Translations under genes and position numbers: made by a program | Notes under the pieces: generated by a model | The model's database searches: none | What the model saw: the letters and a program-made list of their open reading frames with translations, nothing else | What the model was told of the DNA's origin: nothing | Shown: piece by piece, positions 12,401 to 63,631 of the stretch | How positions within the stretch are numbered: position 1 is the stretch's first letter | How the letters are laid out: every line of letters starts with the position of its first letter | Assembly: GCF_017094485.1 (NCBI RefSeq) | Contig: NZ_CP064786.1 | Location: 2,977,128-3,041,127 of the forward strand | Direction: 5' to 3' | From: Natranaeroarchaeum sulfidigenes | Lineage (GTDB): Archaea > Halobacteriota > Halobacteria > Halobacteriales > Natronoarchaeaceae | DNA length: 64,000 bases

Positions 12401-12826
12401 TCAGGCGCGGGCTTTGATATCTTCGACGATATCGTCGAGGTCCTCCTCTGAAAGATCAGGGCGCTGTCCCGCGATAGCGTGAACCGGCGCGCCGCCGTCA
12501 TCCTCGAACCGGGGGATGATGTGACCGTGAACGTGTGGGACTTCCTGTCCGGCTTCCGCGCCATTATTAAAGGCGACATTGGAGGCGTCGGCCCCGACGG
12601 CGTCCTCGACGGCCGGGACGAGGTAATGAAGCGTGTCGAACACCTCCGCACCCAGATCCTCTGGCAGGTCGTTCAGCGTCTCGTGGTGTGCTTTCGGGAT
12701 CACGAGCGTATGGCCGGGCGAAAGCGGGTTGGCGTCCAGAAACGCCAGCGTCTCATCGTCCTCGTAGACCGTTCTGCTCGGGATCTCGCCGTCGATGATC
12801 GCACAGAAGATACAGTCCTCGCTCAT
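12401..12826 (-). CDS. HIT-family nucleotide hydrolase/transferase
   Basis: The 141-residue protein begins MSEDCIFCAIIDGEIPS and has the histidine triad HVHGHIIPR near residue 97, with the helix VGADASNVAFNNGAEAGQ before it. HIT enzymes cleave nucleotide-phosphoramidate or dinucleotide substrates. Two Cys at the N-terminus (CIFC) and downstream histidines may bind zinc as in HinT relatives. The ATG at 12826 gives the family N-terminus; the upstream in-frame ATG adds nine unrelated residues. The 22-bp repeat array at 12942-13029 lies upstream. Confidence 0.9.
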   Translation of the reverse strand: MSEDCIFCAIIDGEIPSRTVYEDDETLAFLDANPLSPGHTLVIPKAHHETLNDLPEDLGAEVFDTLHYLVPAVEDAVGADASNVAFNNGAEAGQEVPHVHGHIIPRFEDDGGAPVHAIAGQRPDLSEEDLDDIVEDIKARA

Positions 12827-12941
12827 ATCCCACATGTCGGCGGCCGGTAGCAAAAACGTTGTCCAGCCGGCTGCGGGCTGCCTGTCGATCCGACAACCAC
12901 GGGGCCAGCATCGACGTGGAAATAGTTCCGGTATCCGTATG

Positions 12942-13029
12942 CTACAGATTTCGAAGTATGGAACTACTGATTATGTAGCGTTACACTACAGTTTTTGTAG
13001 CTAAAGACGAAAACTTTCGAGGTGTTCGA
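12942..13029. repeat. Array of four operator-like units at exactly 22 bp period (array 1)
   Basis: Units begin at 12942, 12964, 12986 and 13008. Their first 15 bases are CTACAGATTTCGAAG, CTACTGATTATGTAG, CTACAGTTTTTGTAG and the degenerate CGAAAACTTTCGAGG. Each is a dyad (CTAC...GTAG or CTAC...GAAG), and a 22 bp step is about two helical turns, which places all units on one DNA face. The array ends 2 bp from the stop codon of the glycosylase gene and lies 116 bp upstream of the HIT start. A matching three-unit array is at 33471-33536. Confidence 0.8.
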
Positions 13030-13031
13030 TC

Positions 13032-13666
13032 TCACCCGACGAACTCGTCCAGACGCTCGGCGACCGTCGTGACGTACTCGTCGGATTCGTAACCGAGCCG
13101 GGCGATCCAGACGTCCTGATATGAGGGATGCAGAACCGGCAGGACAGCGGGGTCGATGCTCGCTGGGTCGACTGGGTCGAGGACACAGTCTAAAAACCCA
13201 TCGAGCGACCGATCAGCGAGGGCAAAGACCGACGCCGTGGCGTGTTTGCCGGCGGGCACGATCACGCCGGGATCGATCTCGTCGAGTTCGGTTTCGAGAT
13301 GAGTGCGACAGGTCGCCCGCTCCTCGTCTGTCGGTTCGCGGTTCGAACCGTCATCGCCTTCCGGGAAGCACTTGACCGCGTTGGTGTAATAGGCGTCGTT
13401 GCCGTAGCCCGCATCGGCGAGCAGTCGTCTGATTCGCTGGCCGGAATGACGCGTCGTGAACGCCTTGCCCGTCCAGTTGCCGCCGCGCCATCGCTCGTTG
13501 GGGCCTCTCCGGGCGACAGCCCCGCGCCGGGCGCTTCGCCGACGACAACGATGCTGGCGTCGAGCGGGCCGGTTCCCCACGAGATGCACTCCCGGGAGTC
13601 GGCGAGGGCAGGACACCGCTGACAGTTCGGTTCGAGGACGTTACAGGAGTCCGGGAACTCGAGCAT
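13032..13666 (-). pseudogene. Uracil-DNA glycosylase (family 4/5-like, Fe-S), frameshifted
   Basis: The N-terminal part from the ATG at 13666 reads MLEFPDSCNVLEPNCQRCPA, with cluster-type cysteines, and ends in VVVGEAPGAG (catalytic motif A). The rest lies in another frame: NERWRGGNWTGKAFTTRHSG, YYTNAVKCFP, and the C-terminal motif LPVLHPSYQDV. The frames switch near 13495-13530, around a GGCCCC tract, and one missing base restores a full-length protein of about 210 residues. Everything else is intact, so this is a very recent lesion or a sequencing error. The function would be removal of uracil from DNA. Confidence 0.8.
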
Positions 13667-13743
13667 AATGGTTCGGGAAGGAGCGATCGGACAAAGCATC
13701 ACCGACAGAAAGACCCATATCGGATCGGGGAGTTTGATGCGGT

Positions 13744-32679: not shown

Positions 32680-33465
32680 ATGTTCGTCGAACTTGCCCTC
32701 CTGCTCGGGGTCGCCGGCGTTGCAGGGTACTTCCTGATCGGCGGTGGCCGCAGACTTCGGACGACGTATCACATTCTCCAGAACGACCCGCTCGACGTTC
32801 GGTCGGTCAACGGCCATCGAGGTCCGGTCGAGGTCGAGGGACAGGCCGTGCCGGACGACGAGCACGGAACTGTCACGGCCCCCTTTACCGGGACAGAATG
32901 TCTCGCCTACACCTACGAGGTCGAGGAACTACGTTCCTCGGGCAAGAACTCCAGCTGGCACACCCTCGACGAGGGACAGGGTGGCGTCGACTTCCTCGTC
33001 GACGATGGAACAGGGCGCGTACGCGTCGATCCGCAGGGTGCGGATATCCGCCTCGACGGTGACTCGATCACCGTCAAACCCGGCAAGGAGTTGCCTGATA
33101 GACTGGAACGATACGTCGAGGCGACCGAGGGCGTCGACAAACAGGACGGAACGGTGAACCTGCTCGTTACCGAGGTGAACACGGGAAACAAACAGCGCTT
33201 TACGGAGCGTCGGCTCGACGTCGGCGAAACGGTCTACGTCTACGGTCAGGCTACCCGCGGCCCCTCGGCGGGCTGGGGGAGTACGGTCGTCGATGCGGTG
33301 ATCGGCAACGGAGACGCCATTCCGACGTTCGTCGTCTCCGACACCGACGAGCGCGCCACTGCGTGGCGATTCGCACGAGGCGGGCTGTGGCGGGTCGCTG
33401 TGGGCCTCGGTGTGCTCGTGATCGGTGCCCTGTTCGTACTGCCAGCGGTCGCCCTGTCCGTCTGA
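32680..33465 (+). CDS. GIDE-domain membrane protein (MULAN/E3-ligase-like, no RING)
   Basis: From the ATG at 32680 the 261-residue protein has an N-terminal helix (FVELALLLGVAGVAGYFLIG), a GIDE domain at about residues 25-215 (GPVEVEGQAV, PFTGTECLAYTYEVEE, GRVRVDPQGADI, ERRLDVGETVYVYGQA) and a C-terminal helix (VAVGLGVLVIGALFVLP). In eukaryotes this domain precedes a RING finger; no RING is present here. The molecular role in archaea is unknown. The 22-bp repeat array 2 starts 6 bp after its stop codon. Confidence 0.8.
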   Translation: MFVELALLLGVAGVAGYFLIGGGRRLRTTYHILQNDPLDVRSVNGHRGPVEVEGQAVPDDEHGTVTAPFTGTECLAYTYEVEELRSSGKNSSWHTLDEGQGGVDFLVDDGTGRVRVDPQGADIRLDGDSITVKPGKELPDRLERYVEATEGVDKQDGTVNLLVTEVNTGNKQRFTERRLDVGETVYVYGQATRGPSAGWGSTVVDAVIGNGDAIPTFVVSDTDERATAWRFARGGLWRVAVGLGVLVIGALFVLPAVALSV

Positions 33466-33470
33466 TTGTA

Positions 33471-33536
33471 CTACAGTTTTCGAAGTTTATGGCTATAATA
33501 ATCGAAGCGTATAGCTACAGTCCTCGAAGTCGCGGG
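33471..33536. repeat. Array of three operator-like units at exactly 22 bp period (array 2)
   Basis: Units start at 33471, 33493 and 33515 with CTACAGTTTTCGAAG, CTATAATAATCGAAG and CTACAGTCCTCGAAG. All three keep CTA at positions 1-3 and TCGAAG at positions 10-15. The period and the motif match array 1 (12942-13029), and both arrays begin within a few bases of a stop codon. This one lies between convergent genes, so a promoter operator for either neighbour is not obvious. Confidence 0.8.
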
Positions 33537-33720: not shown

Positions 33721-35520
33721 CTACACCGCGTCGGGTCCGGTTTTACCAGTTCGTACCTGTACCGCCTCCTCGACGTCCATCACGAAGATCTTGCCGTCAC
33801 CGGGCTCGCCGGTGTTGGCACCCTCCCGGATCGCCTCGACGACGTCCCCGGCGGGCACGTCCGCGACGACCGTTTCGATCTTTACTTTCTGGTGGAGGTC
33901 GACCGTGTACTCTTCGCCACGCCACTGGCCCTTCTTTGCGGGCTGGCTACCGCGGCCGGAGACGTTGGTGACCGTCAGCGACGGCGCACCGACTTCCGCG
34001 AGCTGTTGTTTGATCGCGCCGAGTCGGTCGGGACGAACGATCGCCGTGACCATCTTAATCGGCTTTTCGATGTCCTCACCACCGTCGGACCGTAGCTCCG
34101 ACGAGGCTCGCTCGCCGACCTCGCCACCGTCAGTGCGAATCTCGTGATGTTCCACAGGGACGCCGCCGTCCGTGGCGACGTCGGGACCGCCGAACTCGGG
34201 GTAGGTGTCGACGCCGTGTTCGGAGACGTCGAGGCCGTCACGCTCGTGTTCAGGGGTGACGCGGGCCTGACCCATCGCCTTGAGTGCGCCCCAGACTGCG
34301 GCCGTCGTGACGACGGTCCAGATCGTCAACACTGCGACACCGATGATCTGTGGACCGAACGCGCCCGCTTCGATCGAGAGAATTCCGCCAGCGATGAGCC
34401 CGCCGCCGATTGCCGTGCCCTCGACGGACCACAGCGGGTAGACGATCAGACCGAGCATCCCGGCGCTCCCGTGGACCGGAAAGACTGCACAGACATCGTC
34501 GATCTTGAGCGTCTGCTCGACGAACTTGAACACCAGGGGGAGCTGTGCGCCGGCGAGGAAGCCGATCGCGATCGCACCCATCGGCGTGATCAGGTTCGTC
34601 GGGCCCGTGACACCAACCAGACCAGCGAGCATGCCGTTTGCGACGTACAGCGTATCGACCTTTCCGGTCATGTACAACGCGGCGGCGGCCGCACCGATCC
34701 CGCCAACGCCCATACCGAGTGCCGTCACGATCGCAACACGGCCCACGACTTCGAAGGCACCGAGCTCGAACACACCGGGTTCAGGGTTGATCGGCGTCGC
34801 GGCAGTGCCGACGTTGAAGCCGAACCAGCCGAAACAAAGGATCAGCGTCCCCAGGACGGCGAAGGTCATCGAGTGACCGGGGATGATGTTGACACTGCCG
34901 TCCTCGTTGTACTTGTCCATCCGGCTACCGAGCACCCATGCCGCGGTGAGCCCGGCGACGCCGCCGAGACCGTGGACGACCATCCCACCCGCGAAGTCCT
35001 CGAACCCAAGGCCAGCAAGGAGCGGCGCGACACCATCGGCGGCGTGTGGTGCGTACCAGACCAGACCGGCGGCAACGGGGTAGATGAACGCCGCCAGAAC
35101 GAAGGTGTACGCCAAGTACGCACGGAGTTTCGCTCGTCCTGCGACCGCGCCCGAGACGATCGTCGCGGCAGTCATCGCGAACACCGCGCTAAACAGGACG
35201 TTCATCAGTCCCTCGCTGGGGTCGGCACCGAACATCGTCAGCTCCCCGGTACCACCTCCGACGAGTAACGAACCGATATTATTCGATATCCCGAGACCGA
35301 CGACGAAAAACACCGCAATCCCGATCGCCCAGGTGAGCATGTTCTTGGTCAGCTGATTCGCGACGTTCTTCGAGCGCACCTGACCGGATTCGAGCATCGC
35401 GAAGCCGGCGTGCATGAAGAAGATCAGGAAGGTGACGGTGAGTGCCCAGACCATGTTGATACCGGTCGCGAGCTCGTCTAGATCCGCCGCACTGATCTCC
35501 ATGATAACCGGGTCTACCAT
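33721..35520 (-). CDS. amt: Ammonium transporter fused to a PII (GlnB/GlnK) domain
   Basis: This single 599-residue frame contains a full Amt domain (about residues 10-425) and, after an acidic linker of about 60 residues, a complete PII domain (about 487-599). Amt signatures include [19 protein letters not shown] and [15 protein letters not shown], with both pore histidines. PII begins [17 protein letters not shown]; the T-loop keeps the tyrosine in [10 protein letters not shown], and the end has [22 protein letters not shown]. In most organisms PII is a separate trimer that plugs Amt; here it is tethered in cis. The ATG at 35520 has an in-frame alternative six codons on. Confidence 0.93.
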
Positions 35521-63481: not shown

Positions 63482-63511
63482 TTTATAGGATCAATATTTA
63501 TAGGATCAATA
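63482..63511 (+). repeat. 15 bp tandem duplication in the origin region
   Basis: TTTATAGGATCAATA occurs twice without a gap (63482-63496 and 63497-63511). It is AT-rich and lies on the oapA side of the ORB cluster. Confidence 0.75.
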
Positions 63512-63631
63512 TTAGTGGAGAAAAAGCGGTGCCGGGCTTCAGTGTATAAGATACACGAACGTAGAGAGTTCTCGGTGAGCTCGCGTTGCAGGAGTCGGCA
63601 CGTCGTTGATGCTGTTGGTGGTATTGTCCAC

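Follow-up and report, generated by a model that had tools for sequence, protein, structure and literature searches.

The window analysed here, a 64,000-nucleotide stretch of the Natranaeroarchaeum sulfidigenes chromosome (genome G000), contains a short array of dyads between two genes of the reverse strand. The uracil-DNA glycosylase (UDG) gene whose stop codon borders the array occupies 13032..13616 (− strand; Pfam UDG PF03167, 2.7e-17), and the gene downstream of the array, at 12401..12826 (− strand), codes for a HIT-domain protein (Pfam HIT PF01230, 4.1e-29); taking the ATG at 12826 as its start codon, 114 bp separate the start from unit 1. A preliminary description had placed four units at 12942, 12964, 12986 and 13008, a 22-bp step, and these are present as written; when the unit is defined as the 17-bp ACTWCR-N5-YGWAGT, each start moves back by one base. 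On the + strand, unit 1 occupies 12941..12957 (GCTACAGATTTCGAAGT) and carries 11 of the 12 specified bases, unit 2 occupies 12963..12979 (ACTACTGATTATGTAGC; 10/12), unit 3 occupies 12985..13001 (ACTACAGTTTTTGTAGC; 11/12) and unit 4 occupies 13007..13023 (ACGAAAACTTTCGAGGT; 9/12). The dyad CTAC...GTAG/GAAG that had been ascribed to every unit is found in units 1-3 but is degenerate in unit 4, so that the array comprises three good units and a fourth that would not stand alone. By eye, unit 4 resembles the UDG-nearest unit of the corresponding array in Natranaeroarchaeum aerophilus (L249), which is intact. The location of the array directly after a stop codon was also borne out, unit 4 ending 8 bases, and unit 3 ending 30 bases, before the UDG stop at 13032. 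The UDG gene itself appears to be divided between two frames, with ORFs at 13262-13702 and 13032-13616, which means that over 13032-13702 either the gene is frameshifted or there is a sequencing error.

A second array is found at 33470..33530 (+ strand), with three units at 33470, 33492 and 33514 that score 12, 9 and 11 of 12, respectively. A GIDE-like gene (32680..33465, + strand; Pfam GIDE PF12483, 1.1e-7) ends 4 bp before this array, and convergent with it across the array lies a gene whose product joins an ammonium transporter to a C-terminal P-II domain (33721..35520, − strand; Pfam PF00909 and PF00543). The second array is kept in N. aerophilus between the same two genes (L191). Elsewhere in the window, at 63482-63513, there is a perfect, AT-rich 15-bp tandem repeat (TTTATAGGATCAATA) of 2.1 copies.

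Unit structure and genome-wide distribution

The repeating element consists of the 17-bp dyad and a 5-bp spacer, repeated every 22 bp, with 6-bp half-sites that alternate in orientation at 11-bp steps. Half-sites that are about one helical turn apart in an inverted repeat fit a winged-helix dimer. The half-sites are mostly ACTACA or ACTTCG/ACTTCA and are alike between arrays, while the cores and spacers vary. Furthermore, a unit tends to pair an A-type half (ACTACA) with one of the T type (ACTTCG), with unlike versus like pairings numbering 76 versus 18 in this genome (76/94; Fisher 2e-9) and 69 versus 22 in N. aerophilus (genome G140; 69/91; 5e-7). As the two halves are mostly of unlike type, perfect palindromes are avoided, and this asymmetry is not predicted by a plain homodimer. 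An RNA hairpin was set aside by inspection, on the grounds that perfect palindromes are under-represented.

The array stretches of this genome contain 42 perfect units, around which other good units are found at distances of 22 bp (39 cases), 44 bp (13), 21 bp (7), 43 bp (4), 66 bp (2), 25 bp (1) and 65 bp (1), and at no other distance between 17 and 79 bp; this count is favoured by selection, because the stretches were chosen with the 22-bp pattern, yet they hold 42 of the 47 perfect units present genome-wide. Over 76 stretches from both species, and counting units that score at least 9, the arrays are composed of two (39 arrays), three (26), four (8) or five (3) units. One array has a 21-bp instead of a 22-bp step (L169 near 3000; G000:C1:1803995).

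Within the 3,041,127-bp chromosome of this genome there are 41 such arrays. A pattern of two units allowing up to 3 mismatches gave 54 matches compared with 8 for the reversed pattern, and at up to 2 mismatches the numbers were 40 and 0, leaving 14 versus 8 in the class of exactly 3 mismatches, to which both window arrays belong (the second as judged from its own sequence). The total is made up of 31 arrays, into which the 40 matches merge by place, nine arrays from the 3-mismatch class and the one 21-bp-step array, recovered by single-unit scans; 39 of the 41 were taken as stretches and two lie in the window. Few of the nine 3-mismatch arrays can be due to chance, since eight of them are kept in the congener, and the window array is likewise secured, despite the weakness of its class, by its conservation there. 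The arrays are not evenly distributed: regular spacing along the chromosome was rejected, with a coefficient of variation (CV) of 1.07 versus 0.97 for random placement, and overall their distribution looks random.

In N. aerophilus, the only other genome of the genus in the collection, 51 two-unit matches were found at up to 2 mismatches versus 1 for the reversed pattern, and the matches listed fall in 36 places, represented by 35 stretches, so that at least 36 arrays are present. By comparison, 284 of the 292 haloarchaeal genomes drawn are without any two-unit match at this threshold; besides the two Natranaeroarchaeum species, matches occur in G282 (10, control 4), G044 (2) and G118, G246, G250 and G277 (1 each). 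Five genomes from two other genera of the family have no two-unit match even at 3 mismatches. The array found in G282, which belongs to another family, comprises seven units with the same 22-bp step, several of them nearly identical (L240, about 45-215; G282:C59). Exact dyads were also tallied in a selection of 53 genomes, of which 33 have a relative of the HxlR-family protein described below and 20 lack one; the numbers are 47 for N. sulfidigenes (control 1), 67 for N. aerophilus (0), 19 for G282 (4), 9 for G044 (1) and 0-5 for each of the other 49.

Two further candidates were tried and rejected. Among 39 other haloarchaeal HIT loci, alternating half-sites at step 11 gave one weak match (score 29/36), fewer than were obtained at steps 9, 12 and 15, which are codon-like; this argues against the arrays being a general feature of HIT genes. 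A viral carrier was rejected also: one IMG/VR contig (L238, 5360-5490) does carry an exact match to the two-unit pattern, yet this contig is AT-rich and phage-like and has a repeat of its own (ACTACGGTTTCCGTAGT). Two of those repeats lie 22 bp apart on the contig and look unrelated to the arrays.

Conservation between the two species

At least 34 of the 41 arrays, including that of the window, are kept in place in N. aerophilus. This number comprises 32 arrays matched by their flanking genes (20 by both and 12 by one), the window array and the array at the hxlR gene (L178), and is a lower bound, as stretches of the N. aerophilus genome were taken for matches with up to 2 mismatches only. The nine arrays without a flank match are L155, L160, L167, L169, L170, L172, L178, L179 and the window's own.

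The half-sites are better conserved than the surrounding intergenic DNA. Over the 32 orthologous array pairs, 854 of 975 aligned half-site bases are identical between the species (0.876), compared with identities of 0.680 for the N5 core, 0.564 for the N5 spacer, 0.682 for intergenic flanks and 0.826 for coding flanks. Leaving aside three out-of-register pairs (L157, L174, L184) the corresponding values are 0.876 for half-sites, 0.697 for the core, 0.578 for the spacer, 0.690 for intergenic and 0.820 for coding flanks.

The counterpart of the window array in N. aerophilus is a three-unit array between the UDG and HIT genes. By hand count, the gap between these genes is 205 bp here and 182 bp in the congener, compared with 100 and 67 bp in two genomes of the family that are free of the array, a difference that points to insertion of the array within this genus. 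At two loci (L250, L254) another gene stands in front of the HIT gene, and a third locus, L252 on the − strand, was left out of the comparison.

A candidate ligand of the HxlR family

A comparison of the genes adjoining arrays across lineages identified an HxlR-family gene next to an array in N. sulfidigenes, G250, G277 and G282. The N. sulfidigenes protein is coded outside the window (G000:C1:2517661-2518071), is 137 amino acids long and belongs to the winged-helix HxlR family (Pfam HxlR 1.4e-12), with HxlR (PDB 7bzd/7bze), YodB and QsrR as its counterparts by sequence among solved structures. In both Natranaeroarchaeum species the hxlR gene has a two-unit array upstream at an equal distance, with units ending 105 and 83 bp from the start. 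Relatives of the protein at E<=1e-15 are present in 68 of the 292 genomes of the class; 7 of the 8 genomes with a two-unit match have one, versus 61 of the 284 others, the exception being G118.

Fifty relatives (the 30 best and 20 further ones, of 83 places) were examined, which are related to each other and hence do not amount to 50 independent cases. A unit scoring at least 11/12 is found within 300 bp upstream of 20 of them (7/30 of the closer and 13/20 of the more distant relatives) and within 300 bp downstream of 10 (for example L271, L274, L275 and L278), and 30 of the 50 are without such a unit upstream. As controls, none of 118 far flanks contained one, local shuffles gave a mean of 0.24, and for HIT genes of other haloarchaea the upstream region held one in 2 of 37 cases. 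Of 62 exact dyads in 22 genomes, 12, spread over 11 of these genomes, are no more than 200 bp from a relative, against an expected 0.016, the 22 being the relative-bearing genomes with all sites listed, exclusive of G000, G140, G044 and G127 and of seven genomes without a site; in five genomes (G256, G272, G228, G147 and G129) the dyad beside the relative is the only exact dyad. Upstream of the relatives, like half-sites are most often 8 bp apart (22 pairs), with 22 bp in second place (17 pairs; the next has 9), and the canonical forward-to-reverse distance of 12 is third (19 pairs, after 13 with 23 and 5 with 21). Two relatives are situated near genes for NmrA-like NAD(P)-binding proteins (L260, L262).

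Because relatives often carry the site beside their own gene, the arrays are likely to be docking sites for a small DNA-binding protein of the HxlR type, and from this genomic association we consider the 137-aa protein their probable ligand. On the other hand, dispersed arrays are absent from most relative-bearing genomes, and the presence of the protein is therefore not a sufficient explanation for the expansion. Across 36 aligned relatives one stretch, PNTLS-RL, does not vary; judged by homology, its probable location is the DNA-reading helix.

The known members of the HxlR (MarR/DUF24) group, among them HxlR, YodB, CatR and HypR of B. subtilis and QsrR of S. aureus, are winged-helix proteins like the candidate and bind dyad operators. 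In the DNA-bound B. subtilis HxlR the recognition helices are 34.8 Å apart, as given in the available part of that report (PMC7835342), a spacing close to the 11-bp step between half-sites of the arrays. HxlR senses formaldehyde through a cysteine (PMC7835342, in part), and YodB, CatR and QsrR sense quinones in the same manner, according to the accessible sections of PMC6798810. The thiol-switch DUF24 sensors (YodB, CatR, HypR and QsrR) have a conserved N-terminal redox cysteine, whereas the candidate protein contains no cysteine at all, as is the case for 33 of the 36 aligned relatives, and a YodB-type thiol switch therefore does not apply. Compared with the operators of these regulators, the present case also differs in comprising 41 phased arrays spread over a chromosome.

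Position relative to genes and possible role

Genes around the arrays were called with our own hexamer score trained on the window, and their start codons are uncertain. The gene caller drew a frame across the array in 3 of the 76 stretches (L160, L174, L220). Of 40 of the 41 arrays in N. sulfidigenes, 10 lie in divergent, 19 in tandem and 11 in convergent gaps, compared with 32, 32 and 5 of 69 neighbouring gaps that hold no array and measure 100 bp or more; for 34 of the 35 arrays in N. aerophilus the corresponding numbers are 10, 11 and 13, compared with 27, 22 and 7 of 56, with the reservation for both species that convergent gaps holding an array may owe their length to it.

With regard to the ends of genes, the preliminary description had proposed a transcription-end element among other functions. 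What stood of its interpretation is a putative protein-binding array built of dyads, with several sites and two helical turns to the unit. A particular link with stop codons or transcript ends was not supported, given that 18 of 40 array ends in N. sulfidigenes lie within 45 bp of a stop and 18.9 would be expected from random placement within the gap (gaps of up to 450 bp). In contrast to this neutrality toward stops, the 45 bp upstream of start codons are avoided (3 of 34 array ends versus 12.6 expected, same gaps; two further ends overlap a called start), placing the arrays in intergenic gaps and clear of the core promoter.

We propose that the operator of a local, self-regulating HxlR-family protein was multiplied over the chromosome in the genus Natranaeroarchaeum, and that the protein would bind both the array of its own gene and the dispersed arrays. 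Given half-sites that alternate every 11 bp in 22-bp units, dimers bound one after another would be aligned on a single face of the helix, two turns apart, and might touch, with neighbouring dimers helping each other to bind. Runs of two to five dimers could thus form short nucleoprotein patches in intergenic gaps, clear of the core promoter, acting mainly as boundary or chromosome-organising sites and controlling promoters at some. Taken as a whole, this account of dimer runs on a multiplied operator is in our estimate about evenly balanced between right and wrong. The mixed, mainly boundary-like role is assigned with low confidence, although, if the ligand is indeed of the HxlR family, we rate a boundary or organising function as somewhat more likely than an operator function alone. 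More tentative still, and rather doubtful, is the transition in full, in which copying of the operator as 22-bp phased arrays would have turned a local regulator into a genome-wide boundary or organising protein that acts through face-aligned runs of dimers. Counting against an architectural role are the irregular chromosomal spacing and a possible regulator position: 17 of 34 start-facing array ends in N. sulfidigenes lie 55-95 bp from the start, versus 7.3 expected.

The latter observation leads to the reading that competes most closely, in which the same ligand occupies classical operators and is a global regulator of some 30-40 transcription units in the genus; this is possible but, in our view, unlikely. 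In its favour, 29 of the 40 N. sulfidigenes arrays face at least one start codon (those in divergent and tandem gaps), and the preferred distance lies just upstream of the TATA region, as judged from an AT peak about -30 from starts. T-type half-sites also face the start more often than A-type ones do (26:10 in N. sulfidigenes, p 0.011; 20:9 in N. aerophilus, p 0.061). The relatives YodB and QsrR regulate small gene sets, as described in the part of PMC6798810 available. However, the distance preference is weak once the first 40-50 bp, the core promoter, are barred (p 0.03-0.17, marginal, in N. sulfidigenes; 0.004-0.07, modest, in N. aerophilus), and the polarity of the half-sites is weak also and disappears if every unit of the tandem arrays is included (p 0.47 and 0.38). 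The flanking genes share no common theme, by eye among those listed and by Pfam for 10: they include genes for universal stress proteins, HMG-CoA reductase and a TatD-like nuclease (Pfam), and for histidyl-tRNA synthetase, SRP54 and citrate synthase (by eye). In the two species, 11/40 and 13/34 arrays lie between convergent genes, despite the scarcity of array-free convergent gaps, and for this reason the arrays are not considered to be operators only.

For the organising role that we prefer, a close parallel is SegB, of the SegAB chromosome segregation system of the Sulfolobales, which according to the accessible part of the report has 39 peaks and 46-49 sites in S. solfataricus and brings about compaction and looping (PMC12284271). 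The resemblance lies in about 40 scattered chromosomal sites and a small site-specific protein, which in the present case is predicted. SegB is, however, a ribbon-helix-helix protein with a 13-bp site, more than 80% of its sites are inside genes and many are near segAB (PMC12284271, in part), in contrast to a winged-helix candidate and arrays that are phased and intergenic; the core of its site, AGA-S-TCT, as given in the same portion of that source, also differs from the array motif. The haloarchaeal histones HstA and HpyA likewise have discrete sites, and the loci of HstA share an 11-bp periodicity with the arrays, but in the available text the HstA motif is another sequence (TCGNSSNCGA) and binding is without intergenic preference (PMC10128011).

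The arrays, or an HxlR site in haloarchaea, were not found described in the open-licence PMC literature among the matches listed, with subscription journals outside the scope of the search, and the arrays are undescribed in the available parts of PMC12284271, PMC10128011, PMC7835342, PMC6798810, PMC13286277, PMC3119063 and PMC12306157. For the arrays one can specify the sites, with their exact geometry and conserved locations, as well as a named candidate protein, and the relatives that keep mainly the local site provide a natural before-and-after comparison. Few site-specific chromosome-organising proteins are, to our knowledge, known in haloarchaea, and there is as yet no settled account of how regulators of local scope come to act globally.

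A distinctly less probable alternative is that the dispersed arrays are occupied by some other protein, for instance a second HxlR paralog or a hetero-oligomer, for which the site beside the gene of the 137-aa protein would be one target among others. Asymmetric units would suit a heterodimer, and a first look gave 26 HxlR candidates in N. sulfidigenes, with a single one among the 14 scored reaching E<=1e-15; yet it is the genes of this lineage that the dyad adjoins in half of the 22 other genomes, and the PNTLS-RL stretch is invariant among the aligned relatives.

It is very improbable that the arrays are mobile repeats of the REP or MITE type without a function for the host, a possibility that is largely refuted. 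REP repeats are alike over their length and mobile. The same holds for the PATEs of haloarchaea, as described in the available part of PMC3119063. In common with REP/BIME, PATE and MITE elements the arrays are palindromes present in many copies, dispersed and intergenic, often between convergent genes, and the longer UDG-HIT gap where the array is present makes it look like added DNA. The whole-length likeness of REP/BIME elements is not found, however, as only the half-sites are alike between arrays; the copies are conserved in place, with conservation focused on the half-sites, and in genomes lacking any such repeat family this dyad occurs on its own next to HxlR genes.

Finally, a chance pattern has a negligible probability: the window array is among the weaker ones, its best pair having 3 mismatches, but chance is refuted by the genome counts relative to the reversed pattern, by conservation in the congener, by the sites beside HxlR relatives and by the recurrence of motif and 22-bp phase at other loci, which the preliminary description had itself named as the test, and in the second array of the window.
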